From Acidobacteriota bacterium (GTDB lineage: Bacteria > Acidobacteriota > Terriglobia > UBA7540): 7,163 nucleotides of DNA. The notes beneath the pieces are model-generated. The model was not told the origin of the DNA. It searched no databases and worked only from the letters and a program-made list of their open reading frames with translations. A program made the position numbers and the translations under genes. The stretch is from the NCBI GenBank assembly GCA_003165615.1, contig PLWR01000596.1, forward strand, positions 1-7,163. The letters run 5' to 3'. Of this stretch, positions 3,292 to 6,991 are shown one piece after another; the first letter of the stretch is position 1; each line of letters begins with the position of its first letter.

Positions 3292-4065
3292 ATGAAGCCC
3301 CTTAAATTGAATTGGCGCATGGTGCTGATGCGCCCGCGCAATCCCTTGAACATCGGGGCGGCAGCGCGGGCGTGGGCGAATTTCGGCTTGCTGGATATGG
3401 CGGTTGTTGCCCCTTTTGAACCCACATGGCACGAGGCGCACACGGCGGCGGTAGGCGCAGGGCCGGTGATCGCTTCGGCGCGTGCGGTGCCCACCCTTGC
3501 TGACGCCATGGGCGACGCAACGGTGGTAATCGGCACCACCACCGGCTCCCGTCGCCATCTTGGCCGCGAGATACTGCCACTGCCGGAACTGGCCGCCTGG
3601 CTGCGCCGACGCCGAGCCCGCGGAAAAGCCGTCCTGCTTTTCGGCTCAGAGAAGACCGGCCTTTCCAACGAAGATATGAGTCATTGCCACACGCTGGTGC
3701 GGATTCCCACGACGCCGGATTGCCCTTCCATGAACCTGGGGCAGGCGGTAGCGGTCTGCGCGTATGAATTGGTCCGCGCCGGCATCGTCTCGTTGCCGCC
3801 CGCCGAGGTAACCGTGCATCGCTCAGAACCCGCCAACCAGCAGGCGCTCGATCACATTTTTGCGCACGCTGTCCAGCTCCTGGAGGCATCGGGGTATTTC
3901 CACCCCAAAAGCCGGGCAGCCATGCTGATGAAGCTGCGCCGCACCTTGCTCGATTTGAACCTCACGTGCAACGATGTCCGAGTCCTGGGCGGAGTACTCT
4001 CCCAGGTGGAATGGAAGCTGGAGTCAGAAGGCGGGACACGGGACACGGTAGACGGGAAACGATAG
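3292..4065 (+). CDS. trmJ: tRNA (cytidine/uridine-32-2'-O)-methyltransferase, TrmJ-type SPOUT enzyme
   Basis: This 257-residue enzyme should methylate the ribose of nucleotide 32 in the tRNA anticodon loop using S-adenosylmethionine. The three SpoU/TrmH motifs are all visible: RPRNPLNIGAAAR (14-26), VLLFGSEKTGLSNEDM (114-129) and IPTTPDCPSMNLGQAV (138-153). The last two form the trefoil knot and cofactor site, and the catalytic arginine is R26 by comparison with the family. Residues about 170-245 match the extra C-terminal domain that distinguishes TrmJ from TrmH/TrmL (FHPKSRAAMLMKLRRTL, LGGVLSQVEWKL). E. coli TrmJ is 246 residues. Residues 247-257 are encoded by a heptamer array (4033-4065), so this tail is probably not functional. 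There is no Shine-Dalgarno site; translation may be leaderless or coupled to the gene 32 nt upstream. A generic TrmH-family RNA methyltransferase is the fallback. Confidence 0.9.
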   Translation: MKPLKLNWRMVLMRPRNPLNIGAAARAWANFGLLDMAVVAPFEPTWHEAHTAAVGAGPVIASARAVPTLADAMGDATVVIGTTTGSRRHLGREILPLPELAAWLRRRRARGKAVLLFGSEKTGLSNEDMSHCHTLVRIPTTPDCPSMNLGQAVAVCAYELVRAGIVSLPPAEVTVHRSEPANQQALDHIFAHAVQLLEASGYFHPKSRAAMLMKLRRTLLDLNLTCNDVRVLGGVLSQVEWKLESEGGTRDTVDGKR

Positions 4066-4067
4066 GC
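4033..4067. repeat. Heptamer array, GGGACAC type, across the trmJ stop codon
   Basis: Five units follow in exact 7-bp register: two perfect GGGACAC (4033-4046), then GGTAGAC, GGGAAAC and the degenerate GATAGGC. They encode the last residues of TrmJ and its stop (4063-4065). An inverted unit, GTGTCCC, stands at 4108-4114. It belongs to the same kind of array as those at 4544-4729 and 5691-5852. Confidence 0.65.
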
Positions 4068-4121
4068 GCAGGCGGGGTAAGAAAACCACATCGCCACCCT
4101 GCACCCCGTGTCCCGTTTTTT
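4038..4121 (+). terminator. Possible terminator after trmJ built from facing heptamers
   Basis: ACGGGACACGG at 4038-4048 is a perfect 11-bp complement of CCGTGTCCCGT at 4106-4116, and the second arm runs into TTTTTT (4116-4121). The loop is 57 nt, far longer than in ordinary terminators, and a shifted pairing (4032-4042 with 4105-4115) competes. The T run overlaps the -35 box of the next promoter. Confidence 0.4.
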
Positions 4122-4148
4122 GACCGTAGCGCCGCCGGGCGTTATAAT
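4120..4148 (+). promoter_or_regulatory. Strong sigma70-type promoter for the FmdB-like gene
   Basis: TTGACC (4120-4125, 5 of 6) and a perfect TATAAT (4143-4148) are separated by exactly 17 bp. Transcription should begin near 4155, giving a leader of about 25 nt. Because it lies downstream of the upstream in-frame start at 4108, it supports the TTG at 4180 as the true start. Confidence 0.82.
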
Positions 4149-4179
4149 TAATTGGGATTTCATCAACAGGGAGGCTTGC

Positions 4180-4533
4180 TTGCCGCTTTACGAGTACGAG
4201 TGCAGGAAATGCGGGCGAAGGATGGAGAAAATCCGCAAATTCTCCGATCCGCCTCTGACGAAGTGTGAAAACTGCGGAGGGAAACTCGAGCAATTGCTCT
4301 CATCGCCAGCCATCCGGTTCAAGGGATCGGGTTGGTACATCAACGATTACGCGAAGAAATCGTCCCCTCCCAGCAGCAGTTCGTCTGGCGATTCTTCCCC
4401 CTCATCGGAAAAGAAGGAAAAGGCAGAGGCCAAGGCGGATGTGAAGTCAGAGGCAATGTCAGAGATGAAATCAGAGACCAAGGATTCCAGCAAGTCGAGT
4501 AAACCTGCCAAGACCAGTTCCAGCAAGGAGTAA
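4180..4533 (+). CDS. FmdB-type zinc-ribbon protein with a Ser/Lys/Glu-rich tail
   Basis: This 117-residue cytoplasmic protein starts with MPLYEYEC, the standard beginning of the FmdB regulatory-protein family (zinc ribbon, CxxC_CXXC_SSSS class). Two zinc knuckles are present, C8-x2-C11 and C29-x2-C32, followed by the usual LLSSPAIRFKGSGWYINDY (39-57). Family members are named after a putative regulator of formamidase, but their real role is unsettled. Residues 58-117 are a low-complexity, probably disordered tail of Ser, Lys, Glu and Pro, as is common in the family. The TTG at 4180 is chosen because it begins the canonical N-terminus, has AGGGAGG at 4168-4174 (5 nt spacing), and lies downstream of the promoter at 4120-4148. 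The frame also runs back to 4108, but that part contains the promoter. galU is convergent. Confidence 0.9.
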   Translation: MPLYEYECRKCGRRMEKIRKFSDPPLTKCENCGGKLEQLLSSPAIRFKGSGWYINDYAKKSSPPSSSSSGDSSPSSEKKEKAEAKADVKSEAMSEMKSETKDSSKSSKPAKTSSSKE

Positions 4534-4542
4534 GAACAGGCG

Positions 4543-4568
4543 CCAGGTGTCAGGTTCCAGACACCTGG
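4543..4568. repeat. Hairpin made of heptamers between fmdB and galU
   Basis: CCAGGTGTC (4543-4551) pairs perfectly with GACACCTGG (4560-4568) around an 8-nt loop. The bases also read as 7-bp units (CAGGTGT at 4544, CAGGTTC at 4551, CAGACAC at 4558, CTGGACT at 4565). It starts 10 nt after the fmdB stop and could end that transcript, but no T run follows, so I call it a repeat and not a terminator. Confidence 0.6.
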
Positions 4569-4680
4569 ACTTACAGATGTTAGATAGCGAAATAACTTTC
4601 ATCTTCTGGAGCGGCGCAGGTTGTCACGCTATTTTGCCAACCTCGATGCGTGCCAAGTTTAACGAAGAACCGCCGATATC

Positions 4681-4729
4681 CCAATCCCTGACACCTGACA
4701 CCCGAAATCTCCCACCCGACACCTAAATA
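4681..4729. repeat. Heptamer array, CTGACAC type, at the galU 3' end
   Basis: Two perfect CTGACAC units (4688-4701) are followed in 7-bp register by CCGAAAT, CTCCCAC, CCGACAC (4716-4722) and CTAAATA (4723-4729). The last unit supplies the galU stop codon (CTA at 4723-4725 read on the minus strand). CCTGACACCTG at 4687-4697 is the perfect reverse complement of CAGGTGTCAGG at 4544-4554. Confidence 0.6.
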
Positions 4730-5601
4730 TGCAGTGAGCGGAGATAACTCCGAAAAGCTTTGCCCAGGTCAGGCCGGTCGAGCGCAATTTCCACGGTGGC
4801 TTGCAGGAAGCCGAGTTTATCACCCGCGTCGTATCGCTTACCCTCGAAGACATAACCGTAAACGGGTTCCTTGGCGAGCAGCCGCCGCAGGCCATCGGTG
4901 AGTTGGATTTCTCCCCCCGCGCCCGGAACAACGCTGGAAAGGGCTTTCCAAATCGAAGGCGTCAGAATGTAACGCCCGATCACGGCCAGGTTTGAGGGGG
5001 CTTCTGACGGCGACGGCTTTTCGATCATGTCCTCAATCTGGTAAAGCCGCCCCGGGCACTCGTCATCCTGCACCAGACGCCCGCGAATGATTCCGTAATT
5101 TGAAACCGACTTTCGGGGAACCCGCTGAATAGCAACAACCGTGTGCCCACAACGGTCATAAACTTTCAGCATCTGCTTCAGGCAGGGCACCTCATTCACA
5201 ATGATGTCGTCGGAGAGCAGCACCGCAAAGGGTTCATCCTCCACCAGGTTGCGCGCGGTGAGGATGGCATCACCTAATCCTCTGGGGATTTGCTGCCGCA
5301 CATAGGCGAAGCGCAGCATGCCGGAAATCGATCGGAGTTGGCGACGGAGATCCTCCTTGCCTTTTCCTGCCAGCTCCCGCTCCAGTTCGGTAGAGACATC
5401 AAAGTGATTTTCGATAGCCTGTTTGCCACGCCCCGTAACAAAGACCACCATGGGTATGCCGGATGCGGCCACTTCCTCCACCGCATACTGCACCAACGGC
5501 TTGTCCACGATCGGCAGCATTTCCTTGGGTTGGGCCTTGGTTGCCGGCAGGAAACGCGTCCCCAGCCCGGCCACCGGTAACACCGCTTTGCGGATCCGCA
5601 T
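4723..5601 (-). CDS. galU: UTP--glucose-1-phosphate uridylyltransferase (UDP-glucose pyrophosphorylase)
   Basis: This 292-residue cytoplasmic enzyme makes UDP-glucose from UTP and glucose-1-phosphate for exopolysaccharide, lipopolysaccharide and sugar-nucleotide pathways. The family signature is complete: KAVLPVAGLGTRFLPATKA (5-23) for nucleotide binding, QPKEMLPIVDKP (24-35), QIPRGLGDAI (104-113), LLSDD (128-132) with the metal-binding aspartate, IEKP (193-196), GEIQLTDG (230-237) and RYDAGDKLGFLQA (256-268). Length is typical. I choose the ATG at 5601 because GAGGG lies a few bases upstream on the minus strand and MRIRKAV is the usual start; an in-frame ATG at 5628 would add 9 residues without a ribosome site. 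RmlA-type thymidylyltransferases share the fold, but QPKEMLP and GEIQLTDG favour GalU. It is convergent with fmdB and divergent from tsaD. Confidence 0.95.
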   Translation of the reverse strand: MRIRKAVLPVAGLGTRFLPATKAQPKEMLPIVDKPLVQYAVEEVAASGIPMVVFVTGRGKQAIENHFDVSTELERELAGKGKEDLRRQLRSISGMLRFAYVRQQIPRGLGDAILTARNLVEDEPFAVLLSDDIIVNEVPCLKQMLKVYDRCGHTVVAIQRVPRKSVSNYGIIRGRLVQDDECPGRLYQIEDMIEKPSPSEAPSNLAVIGRYILTPSIWKALSSVVPGAGGEIQLTDGLRRLLAKEPVYGYVFEGKRYDAGDKLGFLQATVEIALDRPDLGKAFRSYLRSLHI

Positions 5602-5655
5602 GTGCCCTCGCTCGCCTTGTGATTTCATTGCCACAGGATTCCCTGGGCGACGTTC

Positions 5656-5684
5656 AGTTTACCCCTCGCTTCCACACTCGTCAA
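5656..5684 (-). promoter_or_regulatory. Likely sigma70-type promoter of galU
   Basis: Read on the minus strand, TTGACG (5684-5679, 5 of 6) is followed after exactly 17 bp by TAAACT (5661-5656, 4 of 6). Transcription would start near 5649, giving a leader of about 48 nt before ATG 5601. The heptamer array begins only 6 bp upstream of the -35 box. Confidence 0.6.
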
Positions 5685-5690
5685 AGCATG

Positions 5691-5753
5691 TATTGCCGAT
5701 TGTCGATTTACCATTGCCGATGGACGATTGTCGATTGTCGATTGCCGAATGCC
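5691..5753 (+). repeat. Heptamer array, GATTGTC/GATTGCC type, forward arm
   Basis: Nine units lie in perfect 7-bp register with no indels. Consensus is GATTGYC: three units are exact GATTGTC (5698, 5726, 5733), one is exact GATTGCC (5740), and the other five differ by one to three bases. One distinctive unit, GATGGAC (5719-5725), is also found in the reverse arm. The array lies between the galU promoter and tsaD and encodes nothing I can support. Confidence 0.85.
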
Positions 5754-5782
5754 GAGGAGCAACAAGGAAATCATCCTCCGCT

Positions 5783-5852
5783 TTCAATCGGCAATCGTCA
5801 ATCATCCATCGGCAATTGACAATCGTTAATCGGCAATCGACAATCGTCAATG
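5783..5852 (-). repeat. Heptamer array, GATTGTC/GATTGCC type, reverse arm ending at the tsaD start
   Basis: Ten units in perfect 7-bp register run in the opposite orientation to the forward arm (plus-strand consensus GRCAATC). They include GGCAATC twice and GACAATC twice. The unit ATCCATC (5804-5810) mirrors the odd GATGGAC of the forward arm. A 29-bp spacer (5754-5782) separates the arms. The last unit ends 2 nt before the tsaD ATG, so the array takes the place of a ribosome binding site. Confidence 0.85.
5816..5844 (+). promoter_or_regulatory. Possible tsaD promoter formed inside the heptamer array
   Basis: A perfect TTGACA (5816-5821) arises at the junction of units GGCAATT and GACAATC. 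Exactly 17 bp further lies GACAAT (5839-5844, 4 of 6 to TATAAT). Transcription would begin near 5851, almost on the ATG at 5855, which would make the mRNA nearly leaderless. The first base of the -10 box is wrong, and similar GACAAT words recur in the array, so chance is possible. Confidence 0.4.
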
Positions 5853-5854
5853 TG

Positions 5855-6991
5855 ATGTTGGTTCTGGGAATTGAATCGAGTTGCGATGAAACGGCAGCGG
5901 CAGTAGTGGCCGACGGCGAGAGGATTTGCTCGAGCGCGGTGGCCTCACAAATCCTCATGCACGAAAAATACGGCGGCGTGGTTCCGGAACTCGCCTCACG
6001 CGAACACTTGCGCGCCATCGGGCCGGTTGTGGATGAGGCCTGCCAGCAGGCCGCGGTGACTCTGCGCGAGGTGGACGCGATCGCTGTTACCGAAGGCCCG
6101 GGCTTGATCGGCTCACTCATGGTGGGACTGGTTTACGGCAAAGCCCTGGCCTTATCCTTGCACAAGCCTCTGGTGGGAGTGAATCACCTGGAAGGCCACA
6201 TCCATGCCGTGCTGCTTGAAAATAAAATCGACCGCGCCGCCGGCAAGCCTCTTCCGGAAGCGCAGGTTCCCGCTGTTACCCTGGTGGTTTCCGGCGGCCA
6301 CACCACTCTGTTTCACGTTGCGCCCGGTGCTTCAGGAGCTCAGCAAGCCTTTCCGCCATTCGCTTATACCCAGCTTGGCCACTCGCGCGACGACGCTGCG
6401 GGCGAAGCGTTCGACAAGGTCGCCCGGCTGCTCGCCCTGGGATATCCTGGCGGGCCGATCATTGATAAGCTCTCCCGTTTCGGCGATCCCCACGCGGTGG
6501 ATTTTGGCCACATCAGGATGAAAGGCAATCCTTTCGATTTCAGTTTTTCCGGACTTAAGACCGCCGTGCTCTACCGCGTGCGCGGCAAGGATCTGGCGGT
6601 CGAAGCGGAGGAGCGTCGCGCCTGGCGCAAAACCGTTCAGCGCCCCAACCTGGATGAGCTGCGCGGCCGTTGTTCGCAGGCGACGCTTGACCTCATCGCC
6701 AGCTTCCAATATGCCGTGGTGCAGGACTTGGTGGAGCGCACCCTCGCCGCCGCCGAAGACTCCCACGTCGATAACATCTTTGTCTCCGGAGGCGTGGCGT
6801 GCAATTCACTGCTGCGCCAGCGCTTTGCCCACCGGTGCAAGGGATTCCAGGTGTTTTTTCCTTCCCCATCTCTTTCCACGGACAATGCCGCCATGATTGC
6901 CGCCGCCGGTTACTATAAACTCCTCGCGGGCGAGCGCGCCGGCATCTCCCTTGCCCCCCAGGCGTCGTTTCCTCTTGGCGTGAAACGGTAA
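5855..6991 (+). CDS. tsaD: tRNA N6-adenosine threonylcarbamoyltransferase TsaD
   Basis: This 378-residue cytoplasmic enzyme transfers threonylcarbamoyl from threonylcarbamoyl-AMP to A37 of ANN-decoding tRNAs, working with TsaB and TsaE, which are not in this window. Visible Kae1/TsaD motifs are VLGIESSCDET (3-13), the metal-binding HLEGH (H111, H115), VSGGHT (145-150), GEAFDK, GYPGGP, FSFSGLKTA (229-237), VSGGVACNS (310-318) and TDNAA (342-346), with D343 as the third metal ligand by family comparison. It is longer than the usual 337-350 residues. About 25 extra residues, rich in charged side chains, lie between FSFSGLKTA and the next helix (near 243-268). The start at ATG 5855 gives the canonical N-terminus; there is no Shine-Dalgarno site. 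The frame is open back to 5423 through the repeat arrays and over antisense galU, which I do not consider coding. Confidence 0.95.
   Translation: MLVLGIESSCDETAAAVVADGERICSSAVASQILMHEKYGGVVPELASREHLRAIGPVVDEACQQAAVTLREVDAIAVTEGPGLIGSLMVGLVYGKALALSLHKPLVGVNHLEGHIHAVLLENKIDRAAGKPLPEAQVPAVTLVVSGGHTTLFHVAPGASGAQQAFPPFAYTQLGHSRDDAAGEAFDKVARLLALGYPGGPIIDKLSRFGDPHAVDFGHIRMKGNPFDFSFSGLKTAVLYRVRGKDLAVEAEERRAWRKTVQRPNLDELRGRCSQATLDLIASFQYAVVQDLVERTLAAAEDSHVDNIFVSGGVACNSLLRQRFAHRCKGFQVFFPSPSLSTDNAAMIAAAGYYKLLAGERAGISLAPQASFPLGVKR

Follow-up and report, generated by a model that had tools for sequence, protein, structure and literature searches.

In the window, a stretch of 7,163 nt from an acidobacterial genome (Acidobacteriota, Terriglobia, UBA7540; assembly GCA_003165615.1, contig PLWR01000596.1), three neighbouring gaps between genes carry tandem heptamers. 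The three loci are one kind of element, consisting of two inverted arms of degenerate heptamers placed around a loop. In the window and its relatives, the arrays have a period of 7 (in some cases 8), pair in inverted orientation, use unit families that are specific to the locus, and lie for the most part outside genes. Some elements of one relative are absent from another, and the loop is found inverted between relatives. Tentatively, and with slightly less than even confidence, we read the arrays as the arms of intergenic foldback elements that are remodelled by slippage and template switching within their own hairpin. An earlier reading of the window alone (the original prediction) had missed that the arrays are paired hairpin arms, that their loops can invert, and that their period and layout match the published Xanthomonas heptamers.

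The inversion of the loop is seen between the close relatives G041 and G074, for which 349 kb align at 85.1% identity. At the 13 sites with loops on both sides, three loops are inverted, four are direct and six cannot be aligned; the nearby control segments are direct in 26 of 26 cases. Doubling the compared stretches adds two unalignable sites and drops one, with no further inversion. With the arrays masked, BLAST again recovers two of the three inversions along with four direct pairs, plus two matches between different places; the controls are direct in 9 of 9. The inversion is clearest at C2 16772, where the loop aligns only as its reverse complement between flanks that align in the forward direction. 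The inverting loops measure about 75-130 nt and are held between periodic arms. At site 65975, both arms keep TCAGC/GCTGA, with changes falling mostly between these, as judged by eye. At the four direct sites, identity (gapped columns excluded) is 92% in the arm cores, 71% at the variable positions of the arms, 69% in the loops and 86% in the flanks.

The same pair of genomes reveals gain or loss of whole elements. For 27 of 28 mapped G041 elements, an array lies in the same G074 gap, and one has none; this is a count of single arrays, and some of these have equal length in the two genomes and may be coding. In the other direction, 5 of 34 mapped G074 elements lack an array of score 12 in G041. 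Nine elements of the comparison could not be mapped. Three G074 gaps of 211-254 nt face G041 gaps of 25-31 nt; by eye, two of these short gaps retain a few units, which makes loss no less likely than gain. The four polymorphic sites inspected show no clear target duplication, and their borders are blurred. An assembly artefact is an unlikely source of the arrays, because they sit inside contigs of up to 1.1 Mb and the flipped loops show ordinary divergence.

The three elements of the window occupy one tandem, one convergent and one divergent gap. The left arm of element 1 (4023..4061, plus strand) consists of GGGACAC-type heptamers running into the end of a SpoU/TrmJ-like gene. Tandem Repeats Finder (TRF) reports a period-7 array with the consensus CGGGACA at 4032-4061 (score 39), and the period-7 scan gives it a score of 17. 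The right arm (4103..4124, minus strand) contains CCCGTGTCCCG (4105-4115) followed by T6, and for this reason element 1 also looks like an intrinsic terminator. The two arms form the inverted repeat I8 (4023-4042 with 4105-4124, 20 nt, 85%), and the fold reaches -44.9 kcal/mol (z -4.4), with 0 of 200 dinucleotide shuffles as good. In element 2, the left arm (4539..4568, minus strand; inverted repeats I9, I12 and I13) lies close behind the fmdB stop (gene end 4533) and has CAGGTGTC-type units, a loop of 118 nt follows (4569..4686, no strand), and the right arm (4687..4724, plus strand) extends with CTGACAC-type units up to the galU stop. The TRF array at 4687-4724 (CCTGACA, score 34) falls below the score-13 cut of the period-7 scan, and this array rests on its inverted partner (4539-4554 with 4687-4702) and on folding (z -2.4; 3 of 200 shuffles as good).

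The left arm of element 3 (5692..5755, minus strand) is built of ATTGCCG/ATTGTCG units (TRF 5692-5755, period 7, ATTGCCG, score 65; period-7 scan score 31), the loop between the arrays spans 28 nt (5756..5783, no strand), and the right arm (5784..5851, plus strand; TRF 5784-5851, period 7, TCAATCG, score 73) carries CAATCGT/CGGCAAT units and ends 3 nt before the tsaD ATG (5855). The arms pair as 5692-5755 with 5788-5851, giving -82.9 kcal/mol (z -8.2) with 0 of 200 dinucleotide shuffles as good. At a period-7 scan score of at least 13, three arms of the window pass (17, 31 and 30). The three period-7 loci of the original prediction are thus real by TRF, with the correction that the third comprises two arms, the left of which (5692-5755) precedes the position at which the array had been placed; units in both orientations, as it had described, are borne out by the inverted arms at each locus. 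The right arm of element 3 leaves tsaD without a separate Shine-Dalgarno sequence (window 5784-5855; relative locus L001, 9960-10001), and the array may supply the tsaD promoter, judging from a TTGACA inside it. A TGCTA(A/G)CAT-like motif is seen by eye upstream of tsaD in most of 22 relatives; the window and L001 lack it.

The inverted layout extends beyond the window. Fifty two-arm elements in stretches of two genomes have a median length of about 203 nt. For 75 arrays of the window and G001, the closest genome, a partner within 200 nt is inverted in 32 cases, direct in 5 and a control match in 4, and 37 of 53 adjacent, independently found array pairs are related in inverted orientation, against 9 in direct orientation. 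The order of the units is not mirrored between the arms (13.8 versus 13.3 after shuffling, Fisher p 0.98 for independently found arrays), as expected if registers slip. A mirrored order, apparent at p 1e-17 when the arms are chosen by their own best match, is rejected by this unbiased test. Compared with unit-shuffled arms, 95 stems have a mean folding z of -1.0, a value biased by the same choice of arms on their own best match. By eye, the hairpins of G041 and G074 appear to nest several families; in one example, AGTTGTC units form the outer part and AGCTATC units the inner part, with GCTGANN and ACTGACA as their counterparts on the other side.

The placement of the arrays was surveyed in G001, in a 348-kb sample, with a crude, home-made gene caller that missed the FmdB-like gene among those of the window. 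Eight of the 72 arrays lie inside called genes (coding fraction 0.75) and six at contig edges. Of the other 58, 48 occupy tandem gaps, 6 divergent ones and 4 convergent ones; divergent gaps make up 28.5% of the gap DNA, yet hold only those 6. Within tandem gaps, 27 of 48 arrays start no more than 60 nt after a stop codon, and 17 of 48 lie no more than 60 nt before a start.

A tsaD scan of relatives, in which 80 named loci were kept from 420 matching stretches (all titled acidobacterial, most of them metagenome-assembled genomes), places the window in a larger class. In the window and 80 relative loci (1.33 Mb), 46 period-7 segments reach a score of at least 16, against 0 in one shuffle, an excess over chance. 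At a score of at least 12, period 7 gives 80 against 2 shuffled and period 8 a smaller excess of 28 against 3; periods 14 and 21 appear as multiples of 7. In 3.29 Mb of relatives, there are 346 arrays of period 7 and 41 of period 8, compared with 2, 0, 5, 4 and 6 for periods 4, 5, 10, 11 and 13; this pool is enriched, its G121, G041 and G074 stretches having been picked partly around pattern matches, and 346 does not represent the density of the class. At score 14, the arrays per Mb number 280 in G024, 268 in G035, 169 in G001 (59 arrays versus 0 in a shuffle), 127 in G050, 88 in G011, 56 in G002, 49 in G056, 25 in G027, 20 in G008, and 0 in G003 and G009. These samples range from 34 to 348 kb, the values are rough for the small ones, and the tsaD-locus stretches of several of these genomes were already known to bear arrays.

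Individual loci display further arrangements. About 17 heptamer arrays of several families are packed within less than 7 kb in G121 (L183, 12397-18773), and L072 (650-1080) contains four copies of a repeat of about 90 nt, each with a TCAGNNN array of different units. Octamer arrays occur in L007, L060, L063, L183, L186 and L187, some as inverted pairs: ATTGANTC, TTGAAACC, GATCGGGT. In L033 and L073, heptamers and octamers of related sequence share one orthologous gap, as if the periods 7 and 8 interconverted.

In equivalent gaps of the relatives, the units change. The nearest genome, bog_367 (L001), encodes a TsaD 87% identical to that of the window; a GACAATC array lies directly before its tsaD (9960-10000) on the right-arm side only, with no left arm, and its fmdB-galU gap carries AATTAAG/AATTCCC arms where the window has CTGACAC arms. 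The galU-tsaD gap holds TCTGCCT and GGGATTA in L006 and AGACTAG in L016; in L002, L003 and L004, the period-7 scan shows no array in this gap.

The preferred core of the units is CTGA, or more broadly CYGA. A motif fit with free rotation and strand yields TCAG in G001 (information 2.95, compared with 2.35-2.48 after column permutation) and CTGA at the other loci (3.50 compared with 2.54-2.84). Among 149 array consensuses, CTGA/TCAG is present in 42 (10.3 expected with letters permuted), GTCA in 29 (10.6), AATC in 25 (7.9) and GACA in 17 (9.2; 1 of 200 permutations as high). The 346 consensuses contain CTGA in 119 (25.9 expected) and CYGA in 160 (47.5); CYGA is missing in over half of them, and this core is a preference, not a rule. 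The commonest units in the G041 and G074 stretches are TCAGGTG, TCAGTTG, TCAGCTA, TCAGCCA and TCAGAAG. The four array consensuses of the window include one with CTGA, one with CCGA and two with neither. Among 151 genomes of the class, 97 have matches to CTGANNN triples. Set against the reversed pattern, which may itself be a unit and serves as a comparison, not a null, they number 199 versus 0 in G045, 171 versus 0 in G133 and 305 versus 12 in G035, but 110 versus 63 in G001, 46 versus 55 in G089 and 0 versus 23 in G114.

GACA is a secondary core. The original prediction had proposed a genome-wide class of arrays in which the period and a GACA core are constant and the remaining triplet varies. 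A widespread class with a fixed period, a preferred core and a changing triplet does exist, but the choice of core was too narrow, and a constant GACA fails in the window itself, where neither arm consensus of the third locus contains it. Pairs of GACA at 7-base spacing occur there once in each of the first two arrays, and a TGTC pair once, at 5729/5736. GACA is enriched, though less than CTGA: it is present in 61 of the 346 consensuses (21.2 expected; highest of 200 permutations 33), a count affected by a set fetched partly around GACA matches, and 42 of the 61 read CTGACA. GACANNN triples match in 57 of the 151 genomes and are outnumbered by the reversed pattern (410 versus 1376, summed by hand), for instance in G001 (12 versus 29), G035 (18 versus 270) and G019 (80 versus 336), with the opposite in G033 (17 versus 0) and G041 (27 versus 2). 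As a general core, GACA is therefore rejected.

Exact sharing between different places is also observed. Array pairs sharing at least 20 nt exactly, with the number after unit shuffling in brackets, amount to 27 (5) in G041, 8 (0) in G074, 20 (9) in G121, 3 (0) in G001, 4 (2) in G035 and 3 (0) in G050. These shared unit orders, together with the related elements of L196 described below, indicate that some copying between places happens, perhaps through arm exchange or transposition. L196 (G041) also contains a tandem repeat of about 92 nt at ~17130-17500, whose copies are 94-97% identical.

A co-occurring protein family was sought, as the original prediction had suggested. RVT_1 matches 20 of 40 genomes but none of the array-bearing G011, G024 and G035 (drafts, a soft absence), and reverse transcriptase is rejected as the maker; Ku is likewise set aside (7 of 20 CTGANNN-rich versus 11 of 20 poor genomes, p 0.34). 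The transposase domain Y1_Tnp, present in 33 of 40 genomes of a first survey, is commoner in CTGANNN-rich genomes, but its genes are not near the arrays: in the G041, G074 and G121 stretches, 2 of 26 Y1 matches have an array within 500 nt, where 2.9 are expected. In L241 and L247, Y1 genes lie among many short palindromes (GCCCGGTTCACCGGGC; GTCCCTACGGGAC), apparently ordinary repetitive extragenic palindromes (REPs), unlike the heptamer arms. In E. coli, SbcD belongs to a hairpin-cleaving nuclease. Full-score matches to it occur in 2 of the 20 CTGANNN-poor genomes and in none of the 20 rich ones, in a search where any match at E 0.001 occurs in 13 of 40 genomes and 8 of 14 control genomes pass the cut-off; its loss is at most a permissive background.

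The inverted loops are a direct observation, and the foldback reading would account for them as follows. The two arms would fold on each other as single strands, and replication would slip or switch template inside the hairpin, so that heptamers are added, swapped and homogenised in any 7-nt register. Occasionally, the loop would be copied in reverse, leaving it flipped. No particular unit sequence would be required, since only the register and the pairing of one arm with the other would count, with a CYGA core favoured. The elements would persist mainly after stop codons, where such DNA harms least, and some copying between places would also occur. Template-switch marks (PMC8794818) and hairpin inversions in chloroplasts (PMC12928735), as far as these are described in the cited portions of the two papers, are the precedents that lead us to propose remodelling within the hairpin itself.

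Several observations weigh against this proposal. The inversions are just three, in one genome pair, and one of them is weak (z 8.6 and 7.0). The 7-nt register is not accounted for. The decay of identity with unit distance is mostly lost in arrays chosen at lag 14 (0.73 to 0.69 in G001, 0.696 to 0.696 elsewhere); the earlier decay was therefore partly ascertainment, and copying between neighbouring units is weakly supported. An identical 28-nt unit order recurs at four G041 loci, and four gaps of L196 share related elements of about 200 nt, loops included, in both orientations, both of which call for dispersal in addition to local remodelling. All 20 CTGANNN-rich genomes carry Y1_Tnp (2-36 matches each), compared with 14 of the 20 genomes without such triples (0-7 matches). 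A full-score SbcD is missing from 18 of the 20 poor genomes as well, while matches of lower score are present in 6 of the rich genomes and in another 5 of the poor ones.

Among the rival explanations, the first takes the elements as selected RNA hairpins, in which a transcribed stem ends, protects or processes the messenger RNA after stop codons and the sequence drifts as long as the cores pair. We consider this rather unlikely, even though it fits the position of the arrays after stops and their rarity in divergent gaps, the strong folding at the window loci, and the retention of an element in the same gap while its units change. The greater identity of arm cores than of flanks at the four direct sites (92% versus 86%) favours it weakly, as alignment in repeats favours core matches. 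However, a run of at least four T within 10 nt after the right arm follows just 5 of 95 stems, so most are not intrinsic terminators and element 1 is an exception; the unmirrored unit order indicates that pairing is not kept perfect, element 3 lies between divergent genes, and the samples of G003 (42 kb) and G009 (34 kb) contain no arrays. Y1 enzymes act on single-stranded hairpins, and the elements could instead be non-autonomous mobile elements resembling REPs or miniature inverted-repeat transposable elements (MITEs), with the heptamer arms as terminal inverted repeats moved by a transposase such as Y1. Identical arms of 28-30 nt at the four G041 loci, the four related composite elements of L196, the three gaps of 25-31 nt in G041 facing 211-254 nt in G074, and Y1 medians of 8 in CTGANNN-rich versus 2 in poor genomes (p 4e-6; per Mb p 6e-5; kinship uncorrected, the rich genomes being larger) all speak for such mobility. 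We nonetheless regard it as improbable: the arms are not one family, with units differing between loci and within gaps over time, no clear target duplication is seen at the four polymorphic sites, unit remnants persist at two of these, the flanks examined near Y1 genes carry other, ordinary palindromes, and the array-rich G024 has one weak Y1 match and G067 none.

Simple slippage of microsatellites with a bias to 7 nt, in which the inverted pairs would stem from chance or from former terminators, would be in line with the heptamer excess in bacteria that the cited part of PMC4692102 ascribes to the polymerase footprint. It is very unlikely, given that the loops invert and that arrays have an inverted partner 6-8 times as often as a direct or control one. 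Least credible of all is the model that follows from the original prediction, in which a single enzyme would set both the period and a GACA core while the triplet may vary. The fixed period, the preferred core and the excess of GACA in both consensus sets agree with it; most GACA consensuses reading CTGACA, and the rarity of GACA triples relative to the reversed control in G001, G035 and G019 (not in G033 and G041), count against it. Beyond these, we raise as a doubtful possibility a sequence-independent 7-nt ruler, that is, a process that writes paired heptamer arms of widely varying sequence, leaning to CYGA, at a large proportion of intergenic gaps, keeping both arms in one unit family but not the unit order, nesting families, and leaving 75-130 nt invertible between them. 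Downstream of its genes, an array-rich genome would then have numerous small hairpins able to flip back and forth.

The genes around the elements carry names (TrmJ, FmdB, galU) that we assigned from Pfam matches. The SpoU-family (TrmJ-like) RNA methyltransferase gene (3292..4065, plus strand; stop 4063-4065) matches PF00588 at 2.5e-23, the FmdB-like zinc ribbon gene (4180..4533, plus strand, TTG start) PF09723 at 3.2e-15, the galU-like nucleotidyltransferase gene (4723..5601, minus strand) PF00483 at 1.9e-28, and tsaD (5855..6991, plus strand, ATG at 5855) PF00814 at 7.8e-79. Further upstream are two adjacent DUF5818 genes (142-1052), perhaps paralogues, and one gene of the window has a weak LolA-like Pfam match below the cut-off. 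A second type of palindromic intergenic repeat is located at 1071-1152 (GTAGCGCCGGCTTCCAGCCGGC ... GCCGGCGCTAC) and ~1690-1725 (GGCGGTCGGAGACCGCCGC), and similar strings occur upstream of tsaD in L021 and L007. Rfam, at gathering score, has no match to the window or to any of six relative loci.

Existing explanations of bacterial heptamers lean on special units, such as quadruplexes and binding sites, or on the polymerase footprint. Here, the period and the hairpin layout are retained although neighbouring gaps and different loci use different units, which argues that register and folding are kept, not the unit sequence. The invertible loops offer a directly countable event for testing template switching in bacteria, and a middle segment flipped between relatives affords an unusual glimpse of the changes that the common seven-base repeats of bacteria undergo with time. 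Heptamer hairpin arrays in Acidobacteria were not found in titles and abstracts among the matches listed, which cover open-licence papers. Filamentous cyanobacteria contain short tandemly repeated repetitive (STRR) sequences, heptanucleotide arrays with several units per genome, and in both respects the acidobacterial arrays are like them; to our knowledge, inverted arms and loop inversion have not been described in STRR. The comparisons that follow refer to the cited portions of each source.

Three heptanucleotides of Calothrix are mentioned in PMC4692102. The TAACTGA repeats of marine Beggiatoaceae (PMC4679880), with 169 direct sets mostly before a start codon, are likewise intergenic heptamers containing CTGA; they differ in having one unit and one inverted set, and related heptamers are rare there. 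REPs, including the GTAG and CGTC palindromes (PMC3733652; RepRanger survey, PMC12306157), are extragenic palindromes in many copies, as the heptamer elements are. The RepRanger survey tabulates Acidobacteriota genomes, and repeat-flanked Y1 transposases have been reported from Acidobacteria, Koribacter among them (PMC3733652, PMC12306157). In contrast to REPs, which are 20-40 bp long and conserved, the heptamer elements are longer, periodic and unconserved, with locus-specific units; unlike MITEs, they have no conserved terminal inverted repeats, the arms varying between loci and only some recurring. Template switching is reported to create stems, stem-half insertions and loop inversions, the latter of 4-8 nt in RNA genes (PMC8794818), and small hairpin inversions of 5-50 bp are common in chloroplasts, where larger ones occur by other short inverted repeats (PMC12928735). 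Stem creation, stem-half insertion and the inversion of a loop flanked by inverted arms (seen here in 3 of the 7 loops that could be aligned among the 13 sites) are shared with these systems. The differences are that one arm is on average not a faithful reverse copy of the other, its unit order being unmirrored, and that the bacterial loops of about 75-130 nt lie between periodic arms.

The closest likeness is to the GGGAATC / GGGGA(C/T)T heptamers of Xanthomonas and Nostoc (Rehm et al. 2015, PMC4692102), where heptamers are reported as over-represented among the simple repeats of many bacterial genomes and the role of the Xanthomonas repeats is called still open. Those units have some free positions and are 89% and 93% intergenic. 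In Xanthomonas they lie on average 28 nt after the 5' neighbouring open reading frame (ORF), with 7-8% between divergent ORFs; nearby sites in opposite orientation form 70 pairs among the 186 patterns of Xcc and 75 pairs among the 183 of Xac, and relatives mostly keep the same gaps with much variation in length and sequence. The acidobacterial elements share the 7-nt unit with degenerate positions, the intergenic location near an upstream stop, the rarity in divergent gaps (as sampled in G001) and the frequent inverted pairs (32 of 75 arrays; 37 of 53 adjacent pairs). Xanthomonas has one G-rich, quadruplex-forming unit, whereas the Acidobacteria have many units per genome, with GGG/CCC in 40 of 346 consensuses, a CYGA preference, and loops that invert. 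In conclusion, by analogy in period, placement and pairing, we take the acidobacterial elements to be of the same kind as the Xanthomonas heptamers, with the unit set free.

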